From NCBI GenBank assembly GCA_003134785.1, contig PLCN01000021.1, positions 317,784-381,783 of the forward strand: DNA of 64,000 nt. Direction: 5' to 3'. Positions 9,621 to 59,413 of this stretch are shown piece by piece. The translations under genes and the position numbers were made by a program. The first letter of the stretch is position 1, and each line of letters starts with the position of its first letter. Origin of the DNA: Spartobacteria bacterium. Its GTDB lineage: Bacteria > Verrucomicrobiota > Verrucomicrobiia > Chthoniobacterales > UBA10450. The notes beneath the pieces were generated by a model, which saw only the letters and a program-made list of their open reading frames with translations, was not told the DNA's origin and searched no databases.

Positions 9621-9701
9621 GTGCGAGAATGAATGGCGCCGAATCGTTGGGAGGAGGAAGCCTGCTTATATCGAAAAGTCAGCCGGGTGGCCATAAGACT
9701 C

Positions 9702-9757: not shown

Positions 9758-9764
9758 GTGGGTG

Positions 9765-11500: not shown

Positions 11501-11542
11501 AATCTTATTCCGTGCGCCAGCCGATTTTGTAACCTCACCGGC

Positions 11543-35482: not shown

Positions 35483-35568
35483 GTGGAGACGTTTTACCGC
35501 GCCGCGAAACACATGCTGCTCCAGCGCCAGAGCGACCTAGCAAAGCGTGCGCTGGCATTCTGCGTTCG

Positions 35569-36513: not shown

Positions 36514-36754
36514 TGATCTGCGCACCCGCAGTGGAGCGTCCGGCGGTCCGCATGGGAGTGTGGGGGCGGAACAGCCGAGAGCTCTGCGAGGACGGCGCAG
36601 ATGATCACTATTTGTCAACGACGCAAACTCGGAGTCTGTGCCGTGGGTCATTTTGGGCGGGCACAGTCTCCACGCGGCGCAGCCGCATCAGGAGGAATTC
36701 TGGAACCTGGGTTCCGGTCGAGTAATGATCGCAAGGGAACTCCGCAGCGCGACG

Positions 36755-36832
36755 CAGTGATCGCGAGTTGGCGGAATGAAGCACGAAGCAGGGTGTTAGG
36801 GCGGAGGCGAGGGAGACAACTCGCGATGACTG
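36755..36832. repeat. Long imperfect inverted repeat in a non-coding gap
   Basis: CAGTGATCGCGAGTTG at 36755-36770 pairs with CAACTCGCGATGACTG at 36817-36832 at 15 of 16 positions, with a 46-base loop, which could fold into a long hairpin. It lies in a 566-base stretch (36514-37079) without a convincing gene. An ORF here (36601-37092) has repeat-like composition through its first half and I do not call it. REP-like palindromes of this kind are often scattered in soil-bacterial genomes. Confidence 0.55.
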
Positions 36833-37079
36833 CATCTCCGAAAAGGGGGAGCAAAGTCTTTGAGCTTTTGGAGGGAGGCGCCGCGGCGCGGAAGCCCGGA
36901 AGGAAAAAGCTCAATGTCTTTGCGCGATGGGCGAGAGCAAAGTTCTACAGCCGCTCACATGCGATGATCGTTCGCGTACTCGGTGAATCCGGTGCGGTGA
37001 TGGAGACGCATGCGGGAAAACCTGCTGTCATCGGTGCCAGGCGGCCAGTTCCGTTTGTCGTGACTGGTCGGGGCGAGCT

Positions 37080-43004: not shown

Positions 43005-45048
43005 TTTGGCTCTCCTTTGCCTTTTGCTGCAAAAAGGCCACGCCTTCTGCCATCCGCCTTTCCCACGGGTCGGCGGCGGTCAGCGACGGTAATCGTTTTT
43101 TCTCTTCCTTGAATCGGAGCGCGCGTTTGGCCAACTCACGAGCTTCTTCGAGAGTCAGATTTATGCGTCTGGCGGCGATCACTTCAGCCACTTGCTTGAG
43201 CCGGGCTTCGCTCATCGATTTCGCCAGAATGGCGTAGGCTTCTCCGAAGGGATTGATCCGATCGATCAGATCGATGTCGAGGTCCCTCACGTCCATCGCA
43301 AACTTTCGCACCCCATCGATCAATGCCGTGTTCTTCGTGTCTTCCGCGCCACTTTCTGACAGAGCCTTCTTCGCCTCCTGGACGATGTTCAGTGCTGCGA
43401 TGGCATGCTGCCGGACAGATTCCTGGTCTTCCTCGTCCAAATGCGGATAGACCTCTTTCACGATCTTTCCCATGCGGACCTGCGTCAGTTCTTCCGGCAC
43501 CAGCTCTTCGTCGAACATGCCACGCTCGACGGTGGTCTTGTCCTGAACGAAGGCGGTGATCAGTTCATTCAAATCCTCGCGGCAAATGCGTACAGCCTCT
43601 TCGCTTTTCGGCTCGACCAGACCTTTGATCTCCATCTGGATTTGGCCGGTTTGCTGGTTCACGCCGACGTTGCATTTGCTCGGGTCATAGCCGCCTTCTC
43701 CGTAGTCGAAGCCGGGCGTAGGCTCATTGTTTGGGTTCTTCGGCTTGAACTCGAACCGCGGCGCCAGGACCTGTTCCATGAGAAGGCTAGCGGCGATGGC
43801 CTTAAGCGTGTCGTTCACTGCTTCCGTCACCGCCTCTTCAGTGGCATCCGGTTCCGCGATGAGATTGGTGAAACGCGTTCGCGTCTTGCCCGGCGCGTCG
43901 CGTGTCGCGCGACCAATGATCTGCACGATTTCGGTTAAGCTGGAGCGATAGCCGACTGTTAGTGCGTGTTCGCACCAGATCCAGTCGAAGCCCTCCTTAG
44001 CCATCCCCAGCGCGATGATTATGTCGACATGGTCGCGGTTATTCTTTTGGGTGGAGTCTCTAAGCGTGGCGATTACGCGCTCGCGCTTGCTAGGATCGTC
44101 ATCCACCAGATCGGCGATTTTCAGAATTCGCCCGTCTGCTGTCTTTACGAGCTGGAAACCGGTATTTGGATCGACACCCTGCCATTCGCCGAGTTCCCCG
44201 ATGATGTGCTCCACCTCTTTGATCTTGTCCTTCGTGCTCTCGCGTGCATTGACGTTCGGAATGTGAACGATCGTCTTCTCGTTAGGATCGAGCACGCTCA
44301 GGATCTCGTCGGTATAGCTTCCCGCGTAGAAGTAATAGCCGATGTCGAGTTGCTTGAGATACTGGTAGCCGTTGAGCTGCTCGTAGTAGGTGTATGTGAC
44401 GGTATCAAACTTCGCCTCGTCTTCCGGGTGTAGCACGGCCTCCGCGTCGCCACGAAAATACGAGCCGGTCATGGCTACGATGTGGGCCTTGTCCCGCGCG
44501 ATGAACTCGCCCAGATGTGCGCCCAGCTTGTTGTCGGGATTGGCGGAGACGTGATGAAACTCGTCCACGGCGATTAATCGATCGTCGAAGGCCTCGACGC
44601 CGAACTTGTCCACGGCGAAGCGAAAGCTGGCGTGGGTGCAAACCAGAACCTTGTCTTCACTATCCAAAAACGCTTTCACGGAATCCACCTTGCCGCCGTT
44701 GTCCGTTCCCGGCGCGTCGCACAAGTTCCATTTCGGCTCCACCTTCCAATCCGCCCAAAAGCCGAACTGGCTCAGCGGCTCATCATGGAAGCTCGCGCCG
44801 ATGGATCGCTCGGGCACGACGATGATCGCCTGCTTGATCCCTTGATTGGCCAGCTTGTCTAGCGCGATGAACATGAGCGCGCGGCTTTTGCCGGAAGCCG
44901 GCGGCGATTTGATCAGCAAATACTGCTCGCCGCGCTTTTGGTAGGCCCGCTCCTGCATCGCGCGCATGCCGAGCGCATTGGCCCGCGTGGAACTGCCGTT
45001 CTGCGCATAGGTGACGGAGACGGAGGGAATGTTTTGCGGGTTGCTCAT
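42997..45048 (-). CDS. DEAD/DEAH-type SF2 helicase of the restriction-like operon
   Basis: 683 residues. Walker A reads SPPASGKSRALMFIALDKL near residues 48-66. Motif Ia is IIVVPERSIGASF, Walker B is AVDEFHHVS, and motif III is VAMTGSYFRGD. The second RecA half ends with IIGRATRDAPGKTRTRF (motif VI). The C-terminus is a long helical region with no nuclease signature. It overlaps the methyltransferase gene by 4 bases (ATGA) and the nuclease gene by 8. It is likely to act as the translocase of the complex. Confidence 0.9.
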   Translation of the reverse strand: MSNPQNIPSVSVTYAQNGSSTRANALGMRAMQERAYQKRGEQYLLIKSPPASGKSRALMFIALDKLANQGIKQAIIVVPERSIGASFHDEPLSQFGFWADWKVEPKWNLCDAPGTDNGGKVDSVKAFLDSEDKVLVCTHASFRFAVDKFGVEAFDDRLIAVDEFHHVSANPDNKLGAHLGEFIARDKAHIVAMTGSYFRGDAEAVLHPEDEAKFDTVTYTYYEQLNGYQYLKQLDIGYYFYAGSYTDEILSVLDPNEKTIVHIPNVNARESTKDKIKEVEHIIGELGEWQGVDPNTGFQLVKTADGRILKIADLVDDDPSKRERVIATLRDSTQKNNRDHVDIIIALGMAKEGFDWIWCEHALTVGYRSSLTEIVQIIGRATRDAPGKTRTRFTNLIAEPDATEEAVTEAVNDTLKAIAASLLMEQVLAPRFEFKPKNPNNEPTPGFDYGEGGYDPSKCNVGVNQQTGQIQMEIKGLVEPKSEEAVRICREDLNELITAFVQDKTTVERGMFDEELVPEELTQVRMGKIVKEVYPHLDEEDQESVRQHAIAALNIVQEAKKALSESGAEDTKNTALIDGVRKFAMDVRDLDIDLIDRINPFGEAYAILAKSMSEARLKQVAEVIAARRINLTLEEARELAKRALRFKEEKKRLPSLTAADPWERRMAEGVAFLQQKAKESQSG

Positions 45049-47834
45049 GCTTCGGAAAGTTTCGTTTGACGGCTGCCTTGCTTCTTCGGCAAGGTCTGTC
45101 CGGCGGTCATCTTAGTATAGAGTTCGAAGAGCTTTTCCAACCGCTCCGTGTCGTTCTTGAAGCGGCGGCCAATGTAAATGCGCTCCAGCACTTCGTCGTT
45201 GCGCTCATGCGCCTCGCGGAGATTGGCCGGCATAGTGTCCGGGTCGTAAAGGTCTGCAATCGTCGCCGGGAAATGCGTCTCGCGCGCCAGCAGGATGTCC
45301 TCCGCGCAACGGGTCAGGTGGGCTTTGTTTTGCTCGGTAAGCGTGGGAACGGGAAAGTTGTTCCAACCGATCGTGCCTGAATAAGAAAGATCGGTTCGAA
45401 GCCGCACACAAACTGCGGCGATCCAAATCCAGTGTAACCTTGAAGAGATGATTGAGAACTCGAAGCGTTCTGGATCCATCACAATGCAAGCGCGATTGCT
45501 AATCACCGTTTCGGACGAGAATAGCTCGGCAGTGATATACTGACGTCGTTCCGAGAAGACCTTGGGTATCGCGATTTGCTCGTGCACGGGCTGATTGATC
45601 CACGCGAACCGATTCGGACGCCCAATGGCGGTTTGTGCGCGAGTTCCAGCGCGGATTCGAAATTCGCGAACCGATGCGATCCTAGAAGCGATTTCAGGTA
45701 TGTCCTGCGCCTCCTTCAGTTCTTCGTTTTCAACCCAAATGCACCACCTTTGGTATCCATGAATAATTTCAGTGGAGCCTAGAAACGGCCTTATGAAACG
45801 TGCGCTTGCAGGACTCGCTTTGATCAACATGTCCTTTTCATCTTTAGTAAGCAGCAAGTGCCCCCCGTCCAGTGGACCACTTCCGTCCGCAATAGGTGAA
45901 AGGCCGTTTCTGGCTGTGCGGTGGCCTTCTACAAAAACCTGAGGACCGGGAAGCAAGTAAGCGTTTATTGAAGAAACGATCCTCACAACCGCCGCACCGC
46001 CTTCGTCTTCGGAAAAAATCTTCCGCGCTGCCGAACTGGCATTAGATATTCCAACAATCACCACCGTAACCCCGGCATTGTTACTAGCCAGGTTTGACCA
46101 GTTAAAACTCGTGTGAGCAAAGGTTATTTCGTGATCCAGTCGAACAATGATTGGCCAAAGTATCGGCACTTGTGCGCCCTGACATATTGAGTTTGTGGCC
46201 ACGAAAGCTGCCGAGGACTTAGTGCACCTTCCGTATTCCGCCGCTTTTAGAAACCATCCAGCCACATAGTCGAGGGATTTCCAACCGCTTGACTGCCCGC
46301 TGAAAATGCTCGCGAGATCAGACTTATGTTCCTTTGTTTGCCATTTGCTACCAACATACGGTGGATTCCCGCAGATGTAGGTCTCTCCGCCCTCGTTCAC
46401 GAAATCGATTTCGGACTGATCCAGCGGCGTGTTGAACAAGTCGTCCCCTCGAATTTTCACAGCTTTTCCTTCGGGCCGGCACACACTCAGCCAATCAAGC
46501 TGCAGCGCATTGCCGCTGGTAATCCAGTTTTCTGCATCAAGCGGCAGGAATTCCGCCAAAGCCTCCTTTTGTCCGCGATAAAGCACATCGCATTGGAATT
46601 CAGCAATGATGAGGGCGAGGCGGGCGATCTCCGCGGAGAAGTCCCGGAGTTCGATGCCGCGAAAGTTGGTGAGCGGAATTTCGGAACGGTTTTCGCGTTC
46701 GCCCCGGCGGAGGTTGATCTCCGCTTCGATCTCGCGCATGTGCTTGTAGGCGATGACGAGGAAATTGCCGGAGCCGCAGGCGGGGTCGAAAACGCGGATT
46801 CTCGCCAGACGCTGGCGCAGGTTGTGGAGCTTACGCGCGTTGTCGCCCGCTTCCTCCAGCTTTTGCCGCAGGTCGTCGAGGAAGAGCGGATTCAAGACCT
46901 TCAGGATATTCGGCATGCTGGTGTAGTGCATGCCCAGGGCACCGCGCTCTTCGTCATCGGCCACGGCCTGTATCATGGAGCCGAAGATGTCCGGATTGAT
47001 CTTCGTCCAGTCGAGACCGCCGACGTGGAGCAGGTAGGAGCGCGCGATCTTACTGAAGCGGGGAACGTCCAGGCTGCCGGAGAAGAGGCCGCCATTCACG
47101 TACGGGAAATCAGGAACCCAACCGGGGATTTTTTCGCCTTTGCGCTCGTCCCGCTTGGTGTTCATAGCTCGAAACACCTCGGAGATGATCTGATGCGTGT
47201 CCGAGGAGTCGCGCGCGCTCATTTTATCAATAGTTTCCGTGAAGCGGGCGTTACTGGGGAAGATATCCGTATCCTCGGCGAAGAAACAGAAGATCAGCCG
47301 GGCCATGAAATGGTTCATGTCATGGCGGCGGTCCGCGGCCGCCCAATCTTCGTTATCCTTGAGCAGCTCGATGTAGAGCTTGTTGAGACGGCCGGTGGCC
47401 TTGATGTCGAACGCGTTCTCGCGGATCTGCCTGACGGTGGTAATGCCGGCCAGCGGAAGGAAGAAGCCGAAGTGATCGGGGAAGTCCGGGTAAGCGCAGG
47501 CTACGATTTCGTTGTCGACGAGGTTTTCGGCCTCAAAGGTTTTCCCGTCCGTGGCGAGGATGAACTTGGCCTTTTGCTTGGCTGTGGCAGCACTCTCCCG
47601 CAACGCGGCGAGAGTTGCTGTCACCTCGCCTTCGGGGCAGACCTTAAGGTGGATATTGTTGCGCTGCAGAACACCGCCGGGCAGGTCGGATTGGTTCGAA
47701 TTGCCGCTCCTAAGTCGCTTGATTGTGGTCTCTTTGTTCCCAAACGCTTCGAGGAATGCGAATGGGAAGCTCTCCGCCTCGAACGGCTGCTCCGCGAGCC
47801 TGGAAACGGCTTCTTCGATTTCAACGGCGTTCAT
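45045..47834 (-). CDS. Class I adenine-specific DNA methyltransferase (MmeI/type IIG-like)
   Basis: 929 residues. Motif I is IRVFDPACGSGNFLVIAYKH near residue 350, and the catalytic motif is ETYICGNPPYVGSKWQ (NPPY), both typical of N6-adenine methylases. The first 300 residues resemble the N-terminal arm of MmeI-like enzymes, though I do not see a convincing D..ExK nuclease. The last 300 should be the sequence-recognition part. It is the first gene of the four-gene minus-strand operon, and its product should mark host DNA so that the downstream helicase-nuclease set can discriminate. Confidence 0.9.
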   Translation of the reverse strand: MNAVEIEEAVSRLAEQPFEAESFPFAFLEAFGNKETTIKRLRSGNSNQSDLPGGVLQRNNIHLKVCPEGEVTATLAALRESAATAKQKAKFILATDGKTFEAENLVDNEIVACAYPDFPDHFGFFLPLAGITTVRQIRENAFDIKATGRLNKLYIELLKDNEDWAAADRRHDMNHFMARLIFCFFAEDTDIFPSNARFTETIDKMSARDSSDTHQIISEVFRAMNTKRDERKGEKIPGWVPDFPYVNGGLFSGSLDVPRFSKIARSYLLHVGGLDWTKINPDIFGSMIQAVADDEERGALGMHYTSMPNILKVLNPLFLDDLRQKLEEAGDNARKLHNLRQRLARIRVFDPACGSGNFLVIAYKHMREIEAEINLRRGERENRSEIPLTNFRGIELRDFSAEIARLALIIAEFQCDVLYRGQKEALAEFLPLDAENWITSGNALQLDWLSVCRPEGKAVKIRGDDLFNTPLDQSEIDFVNEGGETYICGNPPYVGSKWQTKEHKSDLASIFSGQSSGWKSLDYVAGWFLKAAEYGRCTKSSAAFVATNSICQGAQVPILWPIIVRLDHEITFAHTSFNWSNLASNNAGVTVVIVGISNASSAARKIFSEDEGGAAVVRIVSSINAYLLPGPQVFVEGHRTARNGLSPIADGSGPLDGGHLLLTKDEKDMLIKASPASARFIRPFLGSTEIIHGYQRWCIWVENEELKEAQDIPEIASRIASVREFRIRAGTRAQTAIGRPNRFAWINQPVHEQIAIPKVFSERRQYITAELFSSETVISNRACIVMDPERFEFSIISSRLHWIWIAAVCVRLRTDLSYSGTIGWNNFPVPTLTEQNKAHLTRCAEDILLARETHFPATIADLYDPDTMPANLREAHERNDEVLERIYIGRRFKNDTERLEKLFELYTKMTAGQTLPKKQGSRQTKLSEA

Positions 47835-48448: not shown

Positions 48449-48823
48449 ATGGCGGTCACGGTCCCATCATCACGCAGCATCCTCGAAAGCTTATTTTGTC
48501 TGGCGAAGAATGACGGAAGCGAGATGCCGAAAGAGTGGCTTGATTCAACCGTCTGGTGGGTCACAGGCAGGGTTGGCAGCGATGCGATTATAACTTGGAT
48601 GACGAACCGAGGGTCGTGGGCCAGCAGTCACATTCTCGGTGGAGTTGTTGTTTCCGTTTACGCTGCTGTTGATTGCTATGAACCGGCGCGATTGCATTTC
48701 AATCAGGGATCTCTCAGACCAGACACTGACGTAGTACGAGCATTCGAGGTGTTCGAAGAAGGCAGTTTGCATGTACTCGCGCTAAACGCGAGCAACGGAC
48801 TGATAGAGGCCGACCGGGAGTAG
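48449..48823 (+). CDS. Small hypothetical protein
   Basis: 124 residues starting MAVTVPSSRSILESLFCLAK. It contains WLDSTVWWVTGRVGSDAIIT and ends acidic (NASNGLIEADRE). No family is recognised. The balanced composition favours a real gene over a shadow, but it has no operon partner: the DGQHR gene starts 340 bases later. Confidence 0.45.
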   Translation: MAVTVPSSRSILESLFCLAKNDGSEMPKEWLDSTVWWVTGRVGSDAIITWMTNRGSWASSHILGGVVVSVYAAVDCYEPARLHFNQGSLRPDTDVVRAFEVFEEGSLHVLALNASNGLIEADRE

Positions 48824-49162
48824 AACTTTTACCGGTTCAGGATGCTTCACGTTATGAAGCACCGACAGCAGCCTCAACGTGTTTTGCAACCGGTAGCCAT
48901 TTTGATGCGGGAAATACGCTGCGTTTAAATATATCGTTTTCCGTCAGACCGGGTTCCGGGATTCGAGCTAAATATCTGAAGCGGTTGCGACGGGTCCCCA
49001 GCTTGTTCTTCAGAAATTCTGAAACTCGCGTTCCCCGTTTCTACAGTGGATCGGCGCGAATTGCGGCGTGCTTTGATCGGCGGTGATGACAATGTCAATG
49101 GCCCCGCACGGATCGACTGCAAATTTGCATTGATTCGCTGCAGATTTTTGCTAACAGCAGAT
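48824..49162. promoter_or_regulatory. Region upstream of the DGQHR / radical SAM genes
   Basis: 339 bases with no convincing gene. An in-frame extension of the DGQHR ORF begins at 49046, but its first 39 codons read like non-coding sequence. The promoter of the plus-strand genes 49163-53147 is expected here. I see no clear -35/-10 pair or operator palindrome. Confidence 0.35.
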
Positions 49163-50182
49163 GTGCGGCGATTCTCTATTAGGCTGCCAGTGTTGAACGG
49201 CAGGTGCGGTAAGCGGGCGGTGATCCTGGGGTCAGCGCCGGCAGGAGTGCTCCATTCGTTGAGCTTTGCCGATATCCTCGACGAGACCACGGGTCGAGGT
49301 TACCAACGAAAGTTCAACGCGCATCATAGTGTTGATTTCAAGCGGTACATCCAGCAGCCCGGCAGCACCACCGTGCCGCTCACATTCAATTTGAGAAAGT
49401 CCAAGCCTCGGCAGTGGCGCGTTGAAAATACGAGTACGGGCGTGTTTCTGCGAATCAACGGCGGCCGCCCGGTATTTTCGCAGGTCGATTGTCAACATCG
49501 ACTCGGCAGTCTCGCCGGGTCGAAAACGCCTCTCGCCTTTATGTCTTTTCTGGGCCTGACGGTTCGGGAAGAGACTGAAATCTTCACCACGATCAACGGC
49601 AAGGCGAAAGGGCTAAACACCAGCCTGCTCGACTACAATCTGGCGCGGCTCGCCAAAGATCTCGCTGTCGAAGATCCACATCTGTTTATCGCTCTGCGTT
49701 TAAATTCCGCAGAGGGTTCTCCATGGCGCGGGCAGCTCGGGTTGGGTGGCAAAATGACGTCGGGACTAAAGCGACGAGCGTCATTACGAACTGTACAAAA
49801 AGCTGTCGCGAAATTCCTGAAGGCGACAAACATCATTCCGATCGGTGGTGCAGAAGAGGCGAGCAGCGTCGTGCTCGACTTCTGGAAGGCGGTTGCAGTC
49901 GTGCTTCAGAAGGAATGGGAGTGCCCACGAAAGTTCTACATCACAAAAGGCATAGGGGTTTACGGGTTGATGCAGATCGCCGCGGACCTATATCTGGATG
50001 CTGCCTCCCAGAATATCACCCCTACAGTCGGATATTTCGTGGGCTGCCTGGAGGAATTTGTCAGGCAGCTTGACTGGTCTAATCACGGCCCGCTCGAAGG
50101 TCTGAGCGGAGAGTCCGGTGCCACAAAGCTCTACCGGCAGTTGCAAGGTCTTCGCACGACCGCAGCACAGCGAGGACGATAA
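49163..50182 (+). CDS. DGQHR-domain protein (DndB-like, DCQHR variant)
   Basis: About 339 residues from a GTG at 49163 (VRRFSIRLPVLNGRCGKRAV); the ATG at 49046 is the formal ORF start. The DndB/DGQHR core is recognisable in RPVFSQVDCQHRLGSLAG, with Cys in place of the usual Gly (residues 109-113). IFTTINGKAKGLNTSLLDYN and the helical C-terminus also fit. DndB represses phosphorothioate dnd operons, and DpdB-type relatives occur in 7-deazaguanine DNA systems. No dnd or dpd partner is seen here, so its DNA or nucleotide target is open. The stop shares one base with the next start (TAATG). Confidence 0.75.
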   Translation: MRRFSIRLPVLNGRCGKRAVILGSAPAGVLHSLSFADILDETTGRGYQRKFNAHHSVDFKRYIQQPGSTTVPLTFNLRKSKPRQWRVENTSTGVFLRINGGRPVFSQVDCQHRLGSLAGSKTPLAFMSFLGLTVREETEIFTTINGKAKGLNTSLLDYNLARLAKDLAVEDPHLFIALRLNSAEGSPWRGQLGLGGKMTSGLKRRASLRTVQKAVAKFLKATNIIPIGGAEEASSVVLDFWKAVAVVLQKEWECPRKFYITKGIGVYGLMQIAADLYLDAASQNITPTVGYFVGCLEEFVRQLDWSNHGPLEGLSGESGATKLYRQLQGLRTTAAQRGR

Positions 50183-51765
50183 TGGCCAACAAAAACATCC
50201 TGCTGATCGAGCCGGCGTACAAGAACAAATATCCGCCACTTGGCTTGATGAAGTTGGCCCAGTATCACGGACCACGTGGCAAGCAGGACAAGGTCACATT
50301 TGTTAAAGGTGAGGATCGAACTGTCCTCGATACCTATTGGGATCGCATCTATGTCACAACATTGTTTTCCTTCGAATGGAAAAAGATTTCGGAAGCTATT
50401 GATTTCGCCATCGAAGCTTCGGGCGATCAGCCTAACAAAGTGTTCGTCGGCGGAATCGCAGCATCTCTGATGCATGGAGAGTTCTTGAAGGAGATCCGGT
50501 GGCGCGGCGTAAGATTCGTCGCGGGTCTACTGAAGGACCCTCCGGCTCAGTCGCTTCAACTAGATGCCTTCGAAGAGGAACTGTATTCCGACGACCTCGC
50601 TTCCCAACCGATAGAGGATCACATTCCGGACTACAGCATTCTGGAACAAACCGATTACCGCTATTCCATCACGGACGCCTATTTTGCATACGCCTCCCGT
50701 GGGTGCGTGCGAAAATGCAGCTTCTGCGGGGTTCCGAAGCTGGAAGGAGACCTCTACGACACCCCCTCTCTCAGCAGAATAGTCAAAGGCATTGAGAACA
50801 TTTACGGCGCGAAAAAAGATTTGATATTGATGGACAACAACATCGTCGCTTCTCCGCGATTCAAAGAAGTTATCGCGGAGATTCGTGATCTTGGCTTCGA
50901 ACGTGGGGCAAAGTTACAGCGTGGCAAGCGGGCGGCCGTCCAAAGGCGAGTGGATTTTAATCAAGGCGTCGATGCGAGAATTCTGTGTAAGGACCCGATG
51001 TTTCTACGGGAGCTGGCAAGCACGTGCATCAAACCACTTCGCATTGCATTTGATCACATCGGACTGCGCAAGCCGTATGAAACGGCCATTCGTTACGCTC
51101 ACCAAGCAGGGCTGTGTGATCTTTCGAATTACATGCTCTACAATTTTCACGACTCAGCCGCTGATCTCTACCAGCGCATGCGGCTCAACATTGAGCTGAA
51201 TAAGGAGCTTGGAATCCGCATTTTCTCCTTCCCGATGCGGTATCAGCCGACGGACCGAAAAGACCGCGGTTTCGTGGGCGAAAAGTGGAACAGGTACTAT
51301 CTGCGTTCTATGCAGATTATTCTTCAGGCGACACACGGGATTGTGAGCGGGGCGCCACAGTTCTTCGAAAGGGCTTTCGGAAATTCGGAAGAAGCGTTTG
51401 AGCAGCTTCTTACGCGGCCGCAGAAATTTATTTTTAATCGCGTGTGGTTTGAGGAGCTCGGCGGCCAAGCCGAATTTGAGGAGTACCGGTCGCTCTATTC
51501 GCGCTTAAGCGCCGCCGATCGCGCAAATCTGCTATTGGTGCTGTCAAATTTTGAGAATCGACATTTTTCGACTCTGCTGAGCGGAATCAGCAACCGCAAG
51601 GTTAGGGAAGTATTTCGGTTTTACTCTCCGTTGGATGACAGAGAGGAGCGGCAGATTTGGGAGCGGCAGAAGGCCATCCAAACCGAACATGCCGCCGGAT
51701 GCATGCTCCCTGATGACGAGAGAGTTGAGGACGCCGGCCTTGAGTTGAATCCCGTGAGCGCTTAG
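50182..51765 (+). CDS. Radical SAM protein with B12-binding-type N-terminus
   Basis: 527 residues. The N-terminus, NILLIEPAYKNKYPPLGLMK, is the classic opening of cobalamin-binding radical SAM enzymes. The cluster motif CVRKCSFCGVPKLEG places the three Cys at residues 175, 179 and 182. VDFNQGVDARILCKDPMFLR and NYMLYNFHDSAADLYQRMRL match the later barrel strands. A 170-residue helical C-terminus follows. It is coupled to the DGQHR gene and is 2 bases from the GHKL ATPase. The substrate is unknown. Modification of nucleic acid or nucleotide is my inference from the neighbours. Confidence 0.88.
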   Translation: MANKNILLIEPAYKNKYPPLGLMKLAQYHGPRGKQDKVTFVKGEDRTVLDTYWDRIYVTTLFSFEWKKISEAIDFAIEASGDQPNKVFVGGIAASLMHGEFLKEIRWRGVRFVAGLLKDPPAQSLQLDAFEEELYSDDLASQPIEDHIPDYSILEQTDYRYSITDAYFAYASRGCVRKCSFCGVPKLEGDLYDTPSLSRIVKGIENIYGAKKDLILMDNNIVASPRFKEVIAEIRDLGFERGAKLQRGKRAAVQRRVDFNQGVDARILCKDPMFLRELASTCIKPLRIAFDHIGLRKPYETAIRYAHQAGLCDLSNYMLYNFHDSAADLYQRMRLNIELNKELGIRIFSFPMRYQPTDRKDRGFVGEKWNRYYLRSMQIILQATHGIVSGAPQFFERAFGNSEEAFEQLLTRPQKFIFNRVWFEELGGQAEFEEYRSLYSRLSAADRANLLLVLSNFENRHFSTLLSGISNRKVREVFRFYSPLDDREERQIWERQKAIQTEHAAGCMLPDDERVEDAGLELNPVSA

Positions 51766-51767
51766 CA

Positions 51768-53147
51768 ATGCAAGTTCTCACTGAAACACGTAGGGAGCCG
51801 GCACGAACGACACTGCAAATCGCTCCGGTCGTTGGCAAAGATATTCTCGAGTTGCTGACGAGCGCAATGTACGTGGATCCGCTGTGTATTTACCGCGAGT
51901 ATGTTCAGAATGCGGCAGATGCCATAGATGAAGCACGTGATGCTCGACTTTTTGGGTCACAAAAGATTCCGCGAATTAACGTCAAACTAGACCTGTCCGC
52001 GCGCCGCATCATCATCCGAGATAATGGTATCGGCATCGCAGCGAACGTTTTCTCTAGAAGATTAACCGCATTAGGAGCGAGCAAAAAGCGCGGCAGCAAG
52101 GCCAGAGGGTTTCGCGGCGTGGGTCGGCTCGCAGGTCTCGCGTACAGCCAGCAGTTGATTTTCCGGTCGAAAGCGAAGGGTGCGCCAATCACACGAGAAA
52201 TTCAATGGGACTGCCGCAAGCTGAAGACATTGCTACGAGATCACTCCTTCAAAGGCGATCTTCATGACGTAATGCGTGAAGTGGTAGCATTCGAAGATAG
52301 TCCCGGAAATTCGGGCGAACATTTTTTTGAGGTCGAACTGCGCGGAGTCAACCGTATTAGAAACGATGTTCTTCTTAACGAGAGCGTCGTGAGAGACTAC
52401 CTTTCTCAGATCGCGCCCCTTCCTTTTGCTAAGGACTTCTCATTTGGAGACATGATTACCGAGAAACTCTCGGCCTATGGTATAGGCGACACTCACAACG
52501 TTTTTTTGAACGAAAGCGATGTACCGCTGACGCGGCCCTTTAATAATCTCTTTCAGGCAAGAAAACAGCAGACAGATAGATTCGACGGCGTCGAGTTCCT
52601 TGAAGTGCCGGGGCTAAGCGGCGATTTGGATGCCGTCGGCTGGATTTTACATCATGGTTACCATGGCGCGTTGCCCGATCGATCTCCGATTCGGGGATTG
52701 CGTCTGCGGTCAGGCAATATGCAAATCGGGAACGCAAATCTCTTCGATGTCGTATTTCCGGAGCCTCGGTTTAACGGCTGGGCGGTAGGAGAAATTCATC
52801 TCATATCAAATAAGCTAGTACCGAATGGCCGGCGAGACGATTTGGAGCAAAGCACTCACCAGCAAAACCTAATCACCCACGTCATGCCCTACGCGAAGAA
52901 AGTCGCGAAGCTGGCTAGGCAAAAATCCATTGAGCGCAATCAGATCGCTCGCCCGAATGGGGCCGAAACGCAGCCCGCATTCAGACTCGCTGCGCTCCTA
53001 ACAAGACGACAGAAGGCTTGGTTGCGAAAACAACCGAAAGCTGCGGCGGCAGCGTATGAACGATTGTTATCACTCCTTTCCAGTCACAGCCGGCCCCGCG
53101 ACATAACCCCCTTAATCAAGCAGGTTCTTGATGATCTTTGCAAATGA
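51768..53147 (+). CDS. GHKL-fold ATPase (HSP90/MutL-like), first copy
   Basis: 459 residues. The Bergerat ATP site is complete: IYREYVQNAADAIDEA (N box, about residue 42), IIIRDNGIGIA (G1, about 85), and GFRGVGRLAGLAYSQ (G2, about 113). The middle domain is HSP90-like in length and the C-terminus is basic and helical. Such ATP-gated clamps often assemble on nucleic acid or client proteins. It starts 2 bases after the radical SAM gene. Its 3' end faces the unknown gene at 53180 from the opposite-strand arm. Confidence 0.85.
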   Translation: MQVLTETRREPARTTLQIAPVVGKDILELLTSAMYVDPLCIYREYVQNAADAIDEARDARLFGSQKIPRINVKLDLSARRIIIRDNGIGIAANVFSRRLTALGASKKRGSKARGFRGVGRLAGLAYSQQLIFRSKAKGAPITREIQWDCRKLKTLLRDHSFKGDLHDVMREVVAFEDSPGNSGEHFFEVELRGVNRIRNDVLLNESVVRDYLSQIAPLPFAKDFSFGDMITEKLSAYGIGDTHNVFLNESDVPLTRPFNNLFQARKQQTDRFDGVEFLEVPGLSGDLDAVGWILHHGYHGALPDRSPIRGLRLRSGNMQIGNANLFDVVFPEPRFNGWAVGEIHLISNKLVPNGRRDDLEQSTHQQNLITHVMPYAKKVAKLARQKSIERNQIARPNGAETQPAFRLAALLTRRQKAWLRKQPKAAAAAYERLLSLLSSHSRPRDITPLIKQVLDDLCK

Positions 53148-53179
53148 TTTGCCGAGAAAGAAGGTCCGCACGCGTGGCA

Positions 53180-53962
53180 TTACGTCCCAGTTATGTTAAT
53201 AGAATCTGGAACGACTTGGCCCTTTTTGTATGCTCGGATCGGTTCTGACAGAATCGACTCCGGCGAGCCCATGGGCAGAGTACATTTGGGATCATGCCCC
53301 TTGCTGAAGACCAGAATTAACGAGCTCATCACGGTTTTATATAGGGCGTGAAAATAGATTTTGCCCGTCATGTTGTGTTCCTGAAGTAATCGCGACAGAA
53401 CCAGACGGATCGCAAGAGAACGAAATCGAATACCGGTTAGGCCTCTAAGCATCTTCTTCTCTTCTTCGGTTGCTGAGTTTTCAACAGCTCGTGTGTATGC
53501 CTGCAGACCGCGGTCGTGCGGCATATATGTCCAAGCGAAAACGAATGCGGTCCGCGGATGGAGAGCTTGTCGGGAAAAATAGCTACGGAGAGCATGCATT
53601 TCGTGGGCAAATGTGTCGGCTGATGAGATGCCGCCGCCTAAGAAATCTAGGAATGTCATGTCGGCAGTCAGTCCAGCGCGGTAATAATCGCTCTTGAGAT
53701 ATTCCCAAACGTCGCAGGCGTGAAACTCTCGGACCTTAAGGGGAAGATCTGAGATGTTGTGTTCCGCTACTTCCAATTTTTTGCGTTCCCAGTCTATGCA
53801 GATCACATTCCGAAGGAGCCTTTGGAGGATGCGAATATCGAGCGCGGCAGCCTCAGGCATCCCTAAATAGGTCAACTCCTGGCGACCCAGAGCCAGTCCT
53901 GCCTTGCGCAATGCTTCTCTGACGAGCGTCTTCTCATCAGACTCTACAAAGCTGGACGTCAT
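53180..53962 (-). CDS. Unknown protein with Rossmann methyltransferase-like pattern
   Basis: About 260 residues from ATG 53962 (MTSSFVESDEKTLVREALRK), directly after the stop of the second GHKL gene. NVICIDWERKKLEVAEHNIS resembles the acidic end of strand 2 in SAM methyltransferases. FHACDVWEYLKSDY and ADMTFLDFLGGGISSADTF resemble strands 3 and 4. A canonical Gly-rich motif I is not clear (YLGMPEAAALDI occupies its place). A three-Cys-motif-partner-type protein is one alternative. Conserved placement in this cluster would decide. Confidence 0.6.
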   Translation of the reverse strand: MTSSFVESDEKTLVREALRKAGLALGRQELTYLGMPEAAALDIRILQRLLRNVICIDWERKKLEVAEHNISDLPLKVREFHACDVWEYLKSDYYRAGLTADMTFLDFLGGGISSADTFAHEMHALRSYFSRQALHPRTAFVFAWTYMPHDRGLQAYTRAVENSATEEEKKMLRGLTGIRFRSLAIRLVLSRLLQEHNMTGKIYFHALYKTVMSSLILVFSKGHDPKCTLPMGSPESILSEPIRAYKKGQVVPDSINITGT

Positions 53963-53966
53963 AGGC

Positions 53967-55637
53967 TTAGCCCATCGCTTCACTCGACTTCATCGCCGCG
54001 CGGATTAAGTCCAGCAATTCTTCGATTTGATCTTTCGTAAGATTGAATTCCTCGAACTTCAAAATCAATTCGGCCACAAGTTTCTGAATGTCCTTCGAAT
54101 CGATCGTTACGGTCGAAGTTGTTCCGGATCGTTTTGAAGTGCCCCCTGTCTTTTTTGTGCCGCCATCCGTGTTCTTGGCCGCGCCGCTCGTTGCTTTTTT
54201 CTTTAGAAGGCTGCGGTAATTTTTGTTAGACTCGAGGCTCTTGACAGCCGCCTTCCATTCCTTTTCCAGGGTGGTGTTGCTCCATTTCTCACCTTCTCTT
54301 TTCTCGATCGCCTGTTGGGCAGTTCGAACGTCGTAGGTGACTTCCCATTCCTCAGCTTTCCCCTCCGCCAGTTTTAATAAAGACGCCGTAGCTTTGGTGA
54401 CCTTGCGAAGAGCGGAGATCTCCTGCGATTTCTGTTCCGCCCTCTCTTCCAAAGTCGTGTAAAAGTTTTGCAGTGATGTGATAAACTCATCATTTACGTC
54501 ACCACGAAGACCGGTGCCGTCGGCGTTTGGCTTGATATCATCATCGACTACATGCACCTCGCCGACGTACCACTTTAGAATTGTCGCGCGGACATTTTCT
54601 GAGTGAATATTCTTTTCGCCGATTGGGCTGTTGACGACGCATAACTGCACGCCTACCAGCTCCTCCTCCACATCGGACACACCGCCAACGCCAGTCTGAT
54701 CAGGATTCTCTGCGACCCAGCCAACTGCTACTGTTTTACCACTTTTTCCATCGAGTTTGATGTTCGTGGGACCGTCGAACAGACTGAGTTCAGGCGGAAT
54801 TTGCTTCTCCACGGGATCTCCATCGAGAAATACCGGTACCGGTAAATATCGCGCTTTTTTGTAGATCGCAGCGATCTGTCGGTAGTATGGACTCTGTTTA
54901 GCCCATGCGATTTGGCAATGTGTTAACAGCTTCGATCGGAGGTCAGTATCCTCAGGGTCTGTGTGCGAGTACAAACGATTCAACTCGTAGGAGCCAACCC
55001 AACGGCGCGGGCCATCGCACCGAATTTCGATCTTTGTACCGTGCTCCTCAAGGGGATGCTCTGCTTCCCCAAACCTAACGCATTCGGGATTGTTGAGGAT
55101 AGCCTCCATCGTAGGATTTCTCGCCATCGTCTTGTACATCTCCGCGACATTTATGATTAGAATACCGCGCGTTGTGCTTTCGAATTGCTGTGAGCTGATT
55201 ATGATTTGTGATCCGCAAGCGATCATCGCCCAAGAGCCAATCCCTCTGAACCCGGTACGTCGCAGCGTAGGATCGGATGATTTACCTGGTGCGAGTCCAA
55301 TCTGAAGAAAACGCTTGAGCTCCTCGGGCGACCTGCCGTTTCCACTGTCGGCGATTGTGAGCTTGCCTGCGCCGCCAACGTCTCGGCTCCGACTGATAAC
55401 GATACCGCGGTCGATAGCCTCGTCCCGCGATGTCTCGGGCAACTCTAGATAGGAGTCGTAGGAATTCTTTGTTAGCTCGCGAAAGACTGAGCCAATCGAT
55501 GTGTGTATATCAGTTGTGAGCTGATATACAAAATTCGAACCGATGTCTTCCAGGCTGTATTTTACGTCGCTCTTCGCCTGAAAGCCGTACTGCTTTAGTA
55601 GGTCGTCGGTTAGATTCGATTGCTTGGTTCTCGCCAT
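53967..55637 (-). CDS. GHKL-fold ATPase (HSP90-like), second copy
   Basis: 556 residues. N box VFRELTKNSYDSYLE (51-65), G1 IADSGNGRSPEEL near 95-107, and G2 TGFRGIGSWAMIACG near 127-141. Sequence outside the ATP site is unlike the 51768 protein, so this is not a simple duplicate. A Lys/Thr/Gly-rich low-complexity linker (KNTDGGTKKTGGTSKRSGTT) separates a short C-terminal helical domain, presumably for partner contacts. It lies 21 bases downstream of the HerA gene and 4 bases before the unknown Rossmann-like gene, so these three form one unit. Confidence 0.85.
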   Translation of the reverse strand: MARTKQSNLTDDLLKQYGFQAKSDVKYSLEDIGSNFVYQLTTDIHTSIGSVFRELTKNSYDSYLELPETSRDEAIDRGIVISRSRDVGGAGKLTIADSGNGRSPEELKRFLQIGLAPGKSSDPTLRRTGFRGIGSWAMIACGSQIIISSQQFESTTRGILIINVAEMYKTMARNPTMEAILNNPECVRFGEAEHPLEEHGTKIEIRCDGPRRWVGSYELNRLYSHTDPEDTDLRSKLLTHCQIAWAKQSPYYRQIAAIYKKARYLPVPVFLDGDPVEKQIPPELSLFDGPTNIKLDGKSGKTVAVGWVAENPDQTGVGGVSDVEEELVGVQLCVVNSPIGEKNIHSENVRATILKWYVGEVHVVDDDIKPNADGTGLRGDVNDEFITSLQNFYTTLEERAEQKSQEISALRKVTKATASLLKLAEGKAEEWEVTYDVRTAQQAIEKREGEKWSNTTLEKEWKAAVKSLESNKNYRSLLKKKATSGAAKNTDGGTKKTGGTSKRSGTTSTVTIDSKDIQKLVAELILKFEEFNLTKDQIEELLDLIRAAMKSSEAMG

Positions 55638-55658
55638 AATCTTTGCCCTGTTGTGTCG

Positions 55659-57032
55659 CTACATCCGCTTGCGAGTCTCGAAAGAAGCTACCTCAACCGT
55701 TTGCGCCCGATTTGCCGATAAAAACAAACACGTCCCGCGCTTCAGGACTGGTAATATTCGAGCTATTTTGTAAGTTTCAAGATTCATTGCCTTCGTCGCT
55801 AGTGCGCGAGCAATGCGATTTTGCGGATCTGCGATTTGGAACACCATTTTGGTAGCGGTGTTTGATATCGCAACTGGCGAAAAATCTTCGGCTTGTTGTG
55901 AGGCAAGAATGAGCCCGACGCCGAACTTGCGACCTTCCCGAAGCAACTGTTCGGTTGGGGCATCGTCGTCGAAAGAAACGCGGTGTGCTTCGTCGATTAC
56001 TGCAAAACATCGCAAAGGTCCGGGTCCTTTTGCCTCGAGGAACGCCAGCATATTCCAAAGCAGGAACTCTGTTACAATGCGTTGCAGAGAGCTCTCCAAG
56101 CCTTTGAGTTTCAAGATTACCGCACGATTCGAGGCTGATAAAATTTGTTGCCAATCGATCACGACCCCAGATGGCCTGAACGTATTAAAAACAAATATTC
56201 CTGATACATGAGACTCTGTCTTCGCTGCCAATTGGCGATTGGGGTGGGTAGGGTCCCGCGAATATGAAGCCAGTTGATCTCGGATGCGCTGAAAGCTCGG
56301 CGGATCGTTAGTCCACGTGCTTGCGACGGACTGATCAATTCCCGCGGCTTGAAGCACATCAAGAACGCTCTGCCGCAAAATAGCGTGCTGCTGAATGCCA
56401 ATTTTTGGGTACACTCGAGCGAAGGTATCCGCCACTCGCTGGGCAACGTTTAACGGCCCGTGGAGATCGAACGGAAACGATTGCAGCGGATTGATGGCGA
56501 CTCCGTTTTTGCTGGCGTCGATCGTTGTCGGTGCCGCGAGCTGCACGAATTCTCGCGGCGAGGAATCGGGAGTAAACCCCTGACCGTAGTCAAAAATAAT
56601 GCTGGGTATTTTCCGTTGGGCAAGTTCGGCAACGAGACACTGAATCGCGTACGTTTTGCCATAGCCACTCTCGCCAAAAATCAGGACGTGCGGGTTGGGC
56701 GAACCGGAATCTGGAAATGGATCCCAATAGACAGTCTCTTTGGTGTCGAGATCCGTTCCGATCAAGATGCCTCGCGATTCATTCGGCGATGCCGATAACC
56801 CATGCAGAACCGCGTGCTTCTCCTCAAGCTGCACGCGTTCGCCTGGATGTGTCTCGCTGCGTACGGCAGTGGAGAAAGAAGCGCCGCCGCCGTAAGTGCC
56901 CATTGTCAAATGGGCTGCGATCGCAGCGACTTGCCGCTCAGAGATTCCAATTTCTGCTGCGATCTGCTGCTTGGAGTCGCCCTTTTTCAAAAGATCGACC
57001 ACCATCTCACGTTGCTCCGGCGTAATGGGCAT
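55659..57032 (-). CDS. HerA/FtsK-type (DUF87) ATPase with N-terminal HTH
   Basis: 457 residues. The first 45, from MPITPEQREMVVDLLKKGDS, form a small helix-turn-helix (QQIAAEIGISERQVAAIAAH). The HerA-like core has Walker A ILIFGESGYGKTYAI-type sequence (GESGYGKT at 120-127), Walker B CFAVIDEAHRVSFDDD, and VGLILASQQAEDFSPVAISN. HerA proteins form hexameric DNA pumps and power several anti-phage systems. It is the first gene of the three-gene minus-strand unit with the second GHKL ATPase and the unknown protein, and is divergent from the SPL-like radical SAM gene 94 bases away. Confidence 0.88.
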   Translation of the reverse strand: MPITPEQREMVVDLLKKGDSKQQIAAEIGISERQVAAIAAHLTMGTYGGGASFSTAVRSETHPGERVQLEEKHAVLHGLSASPNESRGILIGTDLDTKETVYWDPFPDSGSPNPHVLIFGESGYGKTYAIQCLVAELAQRKIPSIIFDYGQGFTPDSSPREFVQLAAPTTIDASKNGVAINPLQSFPFDLHGPLNVAQRVADTFARVYPKIGIQQHAILRQSVLDVLQAAGIDQSVASTWTNDPPSFQRIRDQLASYSRDPTHPNRQLAAKTESHVSGIFVFNTFRPSGVVIDWQQILSASNRAVILKLKGLESSLQRIVTEFLLWNMLAFLEAKGPGPLRCFAVIDEAHRVSFDDDAPTEQLLREGRKFGVGLILASQQAEDFSPVAISNTATKMVFQIADPQNRIARALATKAMNLETYKIARILPVLKRGTCLFLSANRAQTVEVASFETRKRM

Positions 57033-57126
57033 CGGCAGAACATTAAAAACGGGCCGCGTAACAGGTCGAGCATTATCAGCTCAAGCCCAAACACAGTTCC
57101 CCTCCAAAAAGTAGCCGAATCGGCTA

Positions 57127-58245
57127 TTGTTCCCTCGGATGCCGAACAGCAGCTTCAGAAATATTACGGCCGCCTCAGATAGCTTTGAACGGGTCGGCCT
57201 ATGGAAATTGCCGGCACTGATTCAGCAAAATAATTTTGTCCATAAGAGTTTGTCCGAGTGGGCGTTCAACATCGCTGTTGGATGTAGTCATGCATGCCGA
57301 TTTTGTTACGTGCCCAGCGCGGCGACGATAAAACAGGCGCCCACGCTCCGGATGTATGGAGTTTCCGACCCCGATGAGGAATGGGGGGATTACGTCCTTA
57401 TTCGTCGGTGGGATGAGAAGAAATTTATGTCTTCGTTGAACGCGGCAGAGCGATTGCCGCAGAACCGGCTAAAGCGCGATGGCAATCGCGCTGTCATTTA
57501 CTGCAGCACGACCGACCCATATCAAGTAATCCATCATCCCCACCCGCAGCGGCAGCGAGAACTTGCCGAAGCCGCTCGCCACATTGTCGTGAGATCGCTG
57601 GAGCTTATTCGCGATTATTCAAGTTTGAACGTTCGAATCCTGACGCGAAGCCCTCTAGCGCGGTTGGACTTCGACCTCTTTCGGAGTTTTGGTCCTCGAC
57701 TTGTGTTTGGAATGAGCTTGCCGACCACCAGAAACGATTTGTCAAAAATCTATGAACCGAAGGCTCCGGCTCCGAGCCAACGTTTAACAACGCTACAGGC
57801 TGCCAAAGACGCTGGCCTATATGTGTACGTGGCAGTTGCGCCTACATACCCAGAATGTGACGAAACCGATCTGCGCCAAACTCTCGCTGCAGTCCGCGAT
57901 ATAGATCCGATAACTATCTTTCACGAACCGATTAACATTCGGGCGGAAAACGTGGAACGAATTAAGCGAACCGCTGTAAAGACCGGCATTGCTCTCGATA
58001 CTCGCGTTTTCGAAACGCGCGAAACCTGGCAGCATTACGCGATCAACTCGCTGGTCACAGTCTCGAGATTGGCCGCCGATCTTGGCCTTTCCGATCGTCT
58101 TCATTTGTGGCCTGATAAATCGCTAGGCTCGCGGGCATGTGTTTCGCGAATGCCGAATCCGTCGGCTTTCCAGCAATGGCTTGAGCAGTGTTGGAACCGT
58201 GTCAGCGAATGGCCGCCGGCGGCCGTCAGTGGCAGTGCACGATAG
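57127..58245 (+). CDS. Radical SAM protein of the SPL (spore photoproduct lyase-like) family
   Basis: 372 residues. The cluster motif NIAVGCSHACRFCYVPSAAT has Cys at 53, 57 and 60. YCSTTDPYQVIHHPHPQRQR and NVRILTRSPLARLDFDLFRS are typical of the SPL/Rv2578c group. GMSLPTTRNDLSKIYEPKAP matches the substrate-side strand. There is no B12 domain, so it is a different class from the radical SAM protein at 50182. SPL relatives act on nucleic-acid bases. The gene is divergent from the HerA unit and probably shares its promoter region (57033-57126). Confidence 0.85.
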   Translation: MFPRMPNSSFRNITAASDSFERVGLWKLPALIQQNNFVHKSLSEWAFNIAVGCSHACRFCYVPSAATIKQAPTLRMYGVSDPDEEWGDYVLIRRWDEKKFMSSLNAAERLPQNRLKRDGNRAVIYCSTTDPYQVIHHPHPQRQRELAEAARHIVVRSLELIRDYSSLNVRILTRSPLARLDFDLFRSFGPRLVFGMSLPTTRNDLSKIYEPKAPAPSQRLTTLQAAKDAGLYVYVAVAPTYPECDETDLRQTLAAVRDIDPITIFHEPINIRAENVERIKRTAVKTGIALDTRVFETRETWQHYAINSLVTVSRLAADLGLSDRLHLWPDKSLGSRACVSRMPNPSAFQQWLEQCWNRVSEWPPAAVSGSAR

Positions 58246-58315
58246 TTGGCTGGGCGCTGCGGCGAATTACGTTGCGCTAAAGTCGCTTGGGCGCTGTGAA
58301 CCGTGTCGCTGAAGC

Positions 58316-58675
58316 TCAGGGCCGGGAATCGCGTAGCACCATTTGGTAGACACGATCCAAATCGGTTTTCGTGAGGCGCGTTAGGGACGTGAACGCCTTC
58401 TTCATGTTCAAGCGTTCAGCCAGTTCAGGATAATAATCTTCGTTCACCTTTCCCATACGTCGCATTGCGGTTTTGATTGCCGTGATCCGCGAGGCACGCC
58501 ATTGATCTGGGGCTTTGGTTTTGTAACCGGTGGTCTGAATTGCCTTCTGCTGTCGATACCACGCTTCAACAGCGGGCATGTCCGTGGAAAGCAGTGCCTC
58601 GCGTTTAGGAACTTTGAACCGTTTCAATAGGCGCGCTCCCCATTCGCCGTATGCTTCGTTTCGAGACTTGCCCAT
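58316..58675 (-). CDS. C-terminal piece of a DUF4062/TIR-like protein, separated by a TGA
   Basis: 119 residues starting MGKSRNEAYGEWGARLLKRF and rich in basic helices (ITAIKTAMRRMGKVNEDYYP). It is in the same frame as the 221-residue gene upstream. Between them lie one TGA (58748-58750) and 24 sense codons that read SITTAEEHQIGEWIKELAEG. That sequence runs smoothly into this ORF and resembles the ORF6C-like tails that follow such effector domains. It may be translated separately from the ATG at 58675, or be the lost tail of a once longer protein. Confidence 0.6.
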   Translation of the reverse strand: MGKSRNEAYGEWGARLLKRFKVPKREALLSTDMPAVEAWYRQQKAIQTTGYKTKAPDQWRASRITAIKTAMRRMGKVNEDYYPELAERLNMKKAFTSLTRLTKTDLDRVYQMVLRDSRP

Positions 58676-58747
58676 CGTGCCTTCGGCGAGTTCTTTGATC
58701 CACTCGCCAATCTGATGCTCTTCCGCAGTGGTGATGCTGCCTGGGCG

Positions 58748-59413
58748 TCACTCCAACACCGTCTTCATAACAGGTGGACGTTGGTACTGATGAATCTCGT
58801 TTCCGTCGCCAGCGATCTGGATGTTTCCAGTTCCGCGGGCGCTTTGACGAATTGCGGTCTCGGCTGGTTTGCGGCGCGCACGGCCTTTTCGTCCAAGCGG
58901 AAAGTCGTTTAGGACCAGTGCCAGGTGATTCGCGAAGTCGTCGCGGAATCGGCTCCGCGATTGAAACGTCCAGCAGGATCGATGAGCTCTGAGTTGCTCG
59001 CGGAAAGCAGATAATCGCTTGACCTGCTCGATCGACGCACCTGCGGGCAGTGGTTCCAAATCGGAGAAGTAAACCATTACTTTTCTTCCCCGCTTGATAC
59101 CGCGTTGTATTTCTTCAACCGTGCCAGACTCGGCATTTGCCGTCGCCGTACCGATGCGCGACCAAAATATGGCGACGAGAATGTCAGTGGAATCGATCAA
59201 CTGCTTGTTAATCGCGCCCTGGCCTGTTTCCTGAGCATCGGGATAACTGTCAGTGGACCAATGCTGGTGCTTTACCCAAAAGCCTCGCTGCTCGCCGTGT
59301 TGGCAATTCCATTCATCAATTGCCTCCGCGGCCAGCCCGATTTCTTTGGCAACGTCAGTCGGGCCGCACAAGGTCAGCTTGATCAGTTCAACACTGGAAG
59401 TGCCTCCGCTCAT
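58748..59413 (-). CDS. DUF4062/TIR-like effector-domain protein (possibly truncated)
   Basis: 221 residues. The first 165 follow the DUF4062 (TIR-related) layout: IKLTLCGPTDVAKEIGLAAE, STDILVAIFWSRIGTATANA, GTVEEIQRGIKRGRKVMVYF, and a last helix FANHLALVLNDF. It ends with ARGTGNIQIAGDGNEIHQYQ, a Gly/Asn/Gln repeat that usually links to a further domain. Here a TGA follows instead, and a matching C-terminal domain continues in frame. Proteins of this type are widespread defence or signalling effectors. It starts 45 bases after the large methylase-helicase gene. Confidence 0.72.
   Translation of the reverse strand: MSGGTSSVELIKLTLCGPTDVAKEIGLAAEAIDEWNCQHGEQRGFWVKHQHWSTDSYPDAQETGQGAINKQLIDSTDILVAIFWSRIGTATANAESGTVEEIQRGIKRGRKVMVYFSDLEPLPAGASIEQVKRLSAFREQLRAHRSCWTFQSRSRFRDDFANHLALVLNDFPLGRKGRARRKPAETAIRQSARGTGNIQIAGDGNEIHQYQRPPVMKTVLE

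Follow-up and report, generated by a model that had tools for sequence, protein, structure and literature searches.

What might two radical S-adenosylmethionine (SAM) enzymes, two GHKL ATPases, a HerA-type motor, a DGQHR protein and a protein without a family assignment do together? These seven genes lie at positions 49163–58245 of a 64,000 nt stretch, here called the window, of contig PLCN01000021.1 from a Spartobacteria bacterium (GenBank assembly GCA_003134785.1, positions 317,784–381,783). All seven open reading frames (ORFs) are present where a first-pass annotation, made from the sequence alone, had placed and oriented them, and motif inspection found the catalytic boxes of both GHKL ATPases, HerA and both radical SAM proteins (rSAM1 and rSAM2) to be intact. 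That annotation treated the seven genes as one set. Six of the seven recur elsewhere in the same arrangement, but as a core with a swappable module rather than as a fixed seven. We judge the chances to be about even that the block represents an uncommon form of a modular system acting in conflict with invading DNA, with a core of rSAM1 and the adjacent GHKL ATPase, GHKL1, and a swappable partner module.

The rSAM1–GHKL1 core

When a genome collection was searched with rSAM1, the best 80 of 140 stretches were kept and, with plasmid and viral loci added, a set of 98 loci was obtained, in which at least nine phyla are represented. In 96 of these, rSAM1 is immediately followed by a GHKL1 homologue; the other two are a locus at the end of a contig and a viral one that is divergent. 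The distances of rSAM1 and GHKL1 are strongly correlated (Spearman 0.81). A DGQHR gene is directly upstream of rSAM1 in 48/98 loci by script, or 49 if one with a mis-called start is included. As GHKL1 so consistently follows rSAM1 and the distances of the two are correlated, while DGQHR is present in about half of the loci, we conclude that rSAM1–GHKL1 is the fixed, indispensable core, often joined by DGQHR as a third member. An obligatory role for DGQHR was ruled out.

The rSAM1 gene (50182–51765, plus strand) overlaps the end of the DGQHR gene by 1 nt. It encodes a CxxxCxxC motif at residue 175 that is found in 98/98 family members, and its score against the Pfam radical SAM profile is 20.5, under the cut-off of 29.5. 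The AlphaFold model (predicted local distance difference test, pLDDT, 86) has a cobalamin-type Rossmann N-terminal part and a C-terminal helical part, and its structural matches are cobalamin-domain radical SAM enzymes. The best was AprD4 (Z 17.2, 359 residues, 3.6 Å); MgmA, TsrM and OxsB gave Z-scores of 16.5, 15.5 and 13.8, respectively, and MiaB and RimO 14–15. AprD4, MgmA, TsrM and OxsB were aligned with rSAM1 from residue 1–5 onward (Z 12.5–17.2). By its predicted fold, rSAM1 is thus a radical SAM protein of the cobalamin-domain (class B) type, in agreement with the earlier B12-type assignment. Most homologues, from many phyla, share 56–75% identity with rSAM1. The closest genes on the rSAM1 tree are from Verrucomicrobiota, while relatives on rhizobial, Novosphingobium and Roseomonas plasmids are 60–66% identical; plasmid pNL1 of Novosphingobium aromaticivorans DSM 12444 carries a copy of the system in which the core is accompanied by PIN–GHKL and a large DGQHR protein.

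GHKL1 (51768–53147, plus strand) is an Hsp90-like ATPase that matches HATPase_c_3 above the cut-off (E 5.7e-9) and has HtpG/Hsp90 as its PDB matches. Its N, G1 and G2 ATP boxes read REYVQNAAD, DNGIG and GFRGVG.

The DGQHR protein (49163–50182, plus strand) is of the ParB/Srx type and DndB/DpdB-like. Its ORF opens at 49046, and homologues place the start at approximately 49163–49178, in agreement with the start at 49163 chosen earlier. The protein scores 104.6 bits against TIGR03187 (cut-off 58.85), matches the DpdB profile of PADLOC (E 2e-8), is 47–52% identical to homologues on plasmids and has DCQHR, at residue 148, as its version of the DGQHR motif. With TIGR03187 above the cut-off and DpdB and DndB the nearest proteins, both the DGQHR assignment of the first-pass annotation and the link to these two proteins stand.

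Exchangeable partner modules

A recognised partner module accompanies the core in 89/98 loci, and the nine without one are mostly short contigs or contain unclassified large ORFs. At least five kinds of module recur beside the core, here labelled A to E. Module A, found at 55 loci, consists of an SNF2-type helicase, two ParB-like proteins and a small protein, and module B (31 loci) of a PIN_8 protein and another GHKL ATPase. Module C (17 loci) is a large DGQHR protein in which Card1-like endonuclease and HEPN domains are weakly matched. Module D, the kind found in the window, includes a GHKL ATPase and a protein with a predicted methyltransferase fold, often together with HerA (nine loci by script, plus L084 by profile), and module E (five loci) pairs a small DGQHR protein with a 275 aa protein. 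The possibility that a 338 aa protein of module A is a DpdA-like transglycosylase was considered and found unsupported, the weak match being to ParB_N.

Along the rSAM1 tree the label changes 24 times for module A, 15 for B, 12 for C and 7 for D. Near-identical rSAM1 genes are accompanied by different modules, with module A in L079 and modules B and C in L044. As the labels switch often and near-identical rSAM1 genes differ in module, we conclude that the modules are exchanged as units. The best-conserved part is rSAM1, with a median identity of approximately 63% over all loci; the corresponding medians are 39% for the ParB-like proteins, 29% for the PIN-type GHKL ATPases and 22% for the PIN proteins. 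Even where a pair of loci has rSAM1 proteins that are >85% identical, the PIN proteins are approximately 26% identical (median). This combination of conserved chemistry and fast-evolving partners fits a conflict system. The PIN divergence was seen in module B of 30 loci (for example at 10135–12045 in L006).

Several loci have other neighbours. In L081, a gene for an AIPR (abortive infection phage resistance) protein (2656–4650) is immediately upstream of rSAM1–GHKL1. Distant relatives of rSAM1 lie by HerA-like and NurA-like genes in Marinitoga camini virus 1 (7998–11824) and in a human gut contig labelled as a bacteriophage (MT836743.1, L111; 454–8314), the latter further carrying a GHKL partner and an AlbA-like protein. 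An operon in the order GHKL, HerA-like, NurA-like and rSAM1, without DGQHR, was found in a genome from the same phylum as the window (L120, genome G095; 4620–10349). Divergent rSAM1–GHKL1 pairs in L121 (3630–12629, with DGQHR) and L122 (363–10742) lie by a RecF/DndD-like ATPase and an HKD-type helicase, neighbours that recall the CxC systems of PMC10853773. The HerA–NurA assignments in L111 and L120, and those of the CxC/DndD-like ATPase and HKD helicase in L121 and L122, were made by eye from the sequence.

The partner module in the window and its recurrence

In the window, HerA, a second GHKL ATPase (GHKL2) and a 267 aa protein are transcribed on the minus strand from 57032 down to 53180, and a 94 bp gap separates HerA from the divergent rSAM2 gene. 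HerA (55659–57032) has an N-terminal helix-turn-helix and intact Walker A (GESGYGKT) and Walker B (VIDEAH) boxes. It exceeds the DUF87 cut-off (35.9 versus 23.2 bits) and is 37–49% identical to its relatives; among the PADLOC profiles, that of the DndH HerA domain matches it best (E 4e-49). GHKL2 (53967–55637) evolves fast, with 20–25% identity to its positional homologues. It matches HATPase_c_3 above the cut-off (E 7e-7) and its ATP boxes are RELTKNSYD, DSGNG and GFRGIG, so that both proteins first annotated as GHKL ATPases have a complete set.

The gene for the 267 aa protein (53180–53983) overlaps that for GHKL2. The protein was originally listed as unknown and still has no family match above the cut-off, but an AlphaFold model built from eight sequences (pLDDT 72; predicted template modelling score 0.78) returned Foldseek and VIA-align lists made up almost wholly of methyltransferase-fold proteins (best VIA-align Z 13.6). 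The predicted structure is that of a class I methyltransferase fold. Homologues of the protein adjoin a GHKL gene in other loci. Two more specific assignments were rejected. TcmP gave no TIGR04474 match at E 0.1 and an hhalign probability of 0.5% against the Nostoc and Haloarcula TcmP proteins. The PP_RS20740 family (NF047698), the Pseudomonas putida member of which has been tied to furfural tolerance (PMC9630843), was set aside as a functional lead, since its matches were distant and came from relatives of the 267 aa protein only.

The second radical SAM protein, rSAM2 (57127–58245, plus strand), matches Radical_SAM (E 3.9e-8) and TIGR04470 (E 7.7e-12), and its nearest families are PA0069, Rv2578c and 'mobile pair B'. 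It had been described as a radical SAM protein resembling spore photoproduct lyase (SPL); the first part of this description holds, but SPL was matched only weakly (E 0.013) and rSAM2 is not clearly of that type. At this position rSAM2 was found in the window only, and in L052, L057, L072 and L132 the position is occupied by DUF5131. Homologues of rSAM2 on Nostoc (L008; 10874–12936) and Haloarcula (L009; 12004–14330) plasmids adjoin tcmP, the Nostoc one next to BREX genes. A small protein of 130–145 aa with a DNA-binding look is encoded upstream of HerA in L017 (10437–10832), L052 (17052–17456) and L057 (8231–8668), and one is found at the same position in L072 (16985–17413) and L132 (11395–11787); it is missing in the window.

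The unit formed by the 267 aa protein, GHKL2 and HerA lies beside rSAM1–GHKL1 in three further loci, L052 (Granulicella sp. dw_53, with DGQHR), L057 and L072, with gene order and orientation unchanged. The arrangement of the window recurs in Acidobacteriota. L089 contains the module in a different arrangement, and a fragment of HerA has been kept in L017. A HerA profile search that was not anchored on rSAM1 (E 1e-60) was run on four overlapping genome samples, namely 241 genomes of the window's phylum and 396, 278 and 250 genomes drawn from the groups to which L052, L057 and L089 belong, respectively. It returned seven genomes, two of which were new. The first, G935, has rSAM1–GHKL1, a short protein, GHKL, HerA and DUF5131 in the order seen in the window. 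In the second, G955 (L133; 9195–14824), HerA, GHKL and a methyltransferase-fold protein precede a B12-type radical SAM gene from a different family, which is read as two ORFs with a masked stretch between them. Each of the seven genomes therefore has a B12-type radical SAM gene adjacent to HerA, and rSAM1–GHKL1 is present in six of them.

Seeding the neighbourhood analysis with HerA, as the first-pass annotation had proposed, thus revealed genes that travel together, with alternatives at several positions. The same annotation had named a split into two unrelated known modules as one outcome that would count against a single set. A division into core and module does exist, but the two are neither unrelated nor known. 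No relatives of GHKL2 were found on plasmids, and none of HerA among viral contigs. Plasmid relatives of HerA are of DndH, DUF87 and conjugation types, and neither of the two that were opened carries the core or the module of the window.

Known systems, competing explanations and surroundings

A PADLOC scan of ten proteins (48449–59413) and NCBIfam returned no system with this gene set. No description of it was found in the literature searched, although an earlier one is possible because most subscription journals and bioRxiv preprints lay outside reach. In line with the original annotation, which knew of no named system with these genes, the gene system is apparently undescribed and new in composition relative to the databases and literature searched.

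The closest comparison is with Dnd/Ssp. The block contains a DndB-related DGQHR protein and a HerA that resembles the DndH motor domain most closely, and a modification-like core with variable nuclease partners is also described for Dnd in PMC10853773, which treats both Dnd and HerA capture systems. However, the block has the radical SAM and GHKL pair, and its HerA is a separate 457 aa protein rather than part of a 1,700 aa DndH fusion. Moreover, PADLOC found no match to DndA, DndC, DndD, DndE, DndF or DndG between 48449 and 59413, which places the block outside Dnd. Similarly, the DGQHR protein resembles DpdB and, in other loci, a partner helicase is similar to the helicase part of DpdE, but neither DpdA, the transglycosylase, nor other Dpd proteins were matched in the block, and the DpdB score of 30.8 bits is far from the equivalog cut-off of 300, so it is not a Dpd system.

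GHKL ATPases of the MORC and paraMORC groups are also encoded with superfamily II helicases, nucleases and methylases (PMC2292703), an association reminiscent of the one described here. That study does not mention HerA, ParB or radical SAM proteins, and the GHKL ATPase domains of the block are most like HtpG/Hsp90. The predicted rSAM1 fold and its CxxxCxxC motif resemble those of the class B enzymes AprD4, MgmA, TsrM and OxsB along most of the protein, but rSAM1 is only 13–15% identical to them, has a different C-terminal helical part, lacks the classic B12 motif and occurs in a GHKL context. Finally, there is some likeness to mobile pairs of TcmP with radical SAM and of DUF5131, seen in the rSAM2 homologues that adjoin tcmP and in the replacement of rSAM2 by DUF5131. 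The methyltransferase-fold protein of the window is nevertheless not TcmP by profile comparison.

Signs of conflict over DNA are the similarities to DndB, DpdB and DndH, the SNF2 helicases and PIN_8 proteins of the partner modules, the weak Card1-like and HEPN matches and the AIPR gene beside one core. The HerA–NurA and CxC-like ATPase/HKD helicase neighbours, assigned by eye, and the known defence families flanking other loci point the same way. In the mechanism that we favour, rSAM1, aided by DGQHR and clamped by the ATP-driven GHKL1, would make or alter a chemical mark on nucleic acid, which we infer to be its substrate. The partner module would then read the state of this mark on DNA. In the window, HerA would travel along the DNA, GHKL2 would close around it and the methyltransferase-fold protein would act as the reader, after which the module would block or destroy DNA in the wrong state. 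PIN, NurA, HKD-type or AIPR proteins may perform this final step in other versions.

Few self-marks of bacterial DNA are known, among them methylation, phosphorothioation and deazaguanine insertion. The rSAM–GHKL pair, present in at least nine phyla beside changing DNA-attacking modules, is a strong place to seek a further one. We tentatively raise the possibility, itself doubtful, of a widespread, undescribed marking system in which a cobalamin-type rSAM, driven by a dedicated Hsp90-like GHKL clamp, would label DNA (or RNA) with a mark of a new kind. Recognition of this mark by at least five interchangeable modules would serve to restrict invading DNA, the HerA/methyltransferase-fold version of the window acting without a recognisable nuclease. 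If confirmed, it would add to the chemistries of immunity, assign a role to a large, uncharacterised family of radical SAM proteins and provide a prokaryotic setting for Hsp90/MORC-like clamps.

Several observations weigh against a DNA-conflict role built on such marking. The classic B12 motif, DxHxxG, is missing in 97/98 rSAM1 family members, in which cobalamin binding is a prediction; certain cobalamin radical SAM enzymes also lack this motif. DGQHR provides the strongest link to DNA modification, yet it is missing upstream of about half of the cores. Most of the loci were gathered by the rSAM1 search, and some of the records are near-duplicates. In the module of the window no nuclease was recognised, and rSAM2 and DUF5131 share a position alone, an hhalign probability of 9% giving no support to orthology. 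The 267 aa protein is 13–25% identical to its positional homologues, and its counterpart in G935 matches the family at E 0.005 only. The glycine-rich SAM loop (motif I, GxGxG) is also missing from this protein, which has YLGMPEA there (YxGLPxA in the family). We suggest that it serves as a reader or structural component; methylating activity is doubtful.

The strongest of the competing explanations, though still a doubtful one, keeps the same modular system and has rSAM1 act on a nucleotide, a small molecule or a partner protein, with the modules responding to the product. Viperins, for example, make a chain-terminating nucleotide; maturation of an effector would be the other option. AprD4, the best fold match, acts on an aminoglycoside, MgmA on a protein and TsrM on tryptophan. 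A fixed small substrate would also be expected to leave rSAM1 far better conserved than its partners, as it is, and about half of the loci do without DGQHR. The fold of rSAM1 does not decide its substrate, however, because MiaB and RimO score well too, and the recurrent DNA motors, helicases and ParB- or DGQHR-type proteins suggest that DNA is involved, if only in the step carried out by the partners.

It is unlikely that, instead of defending the host cell, the system serves the maintenance or transfer of mobile elements through exclusion, partition or competition between plasmids. The many copies on rhizobial, Novosphingobium and Roseomonas plasmids are consistent with such a role, as are the integrase or recombinase families found near 18 loci, and ParB-like and HerA proteins also serve in partition and transfer. 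On the other hand, the partner modules include nuclease-type or AIPR domains, the window is a dense defence island, and 85 sampled genes flanking other loci included matches to PD-T7-1 (three), PD-T7-5 (three), Druantia, Septu and Uzume, a plain count without a background. The exclusion of rival plasmids would, moreover, still be a form of defence.

That DGQHR–rSAM1–GHKL1 and HerA–GHKL2–267 aa protein–rSAM2 are unrelated modules and neighbours by chance is very improbable: defence islands do gather unrelated systems, the core is often without HerA and rSAM2 is confined to the window at its position, but the tail-to-tail order recurs in three other loci, the unanchored HerA search recovered it again in G935, and all seven genomes with this HerA have an adjacent B12-type radical SAM gene.

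The DNA-conflict reading that we prefer is set in the following surroundings. The window as a whole is a defence island, and the element on which it lies has conjugation genes; a TraC/TraG-like ATPase is encoded in the window. To the left of the block is a complete MmeI-type IIG restriction-methyltransferase gene (45045–47834), as the earlier description of this flank as restriction-like had implied. The right flank had been called TIR-like, but TIR was not confirmed there; instead, the gene at 58748–59413 matches the first 170 residues of the 906 aa candidate PDC-S60 (E 2.4e-27). Further to the left, a GmrSD_N domain is fused to Schlafen/AlbA_2 (HEC-05-like; 39495–41747) in a protein encoded next to a T5orf172 protein and a DEAD helicase, and a ClpB-like, DolB-matching ATPase lies near a DitA-matching protein (35473–38549).

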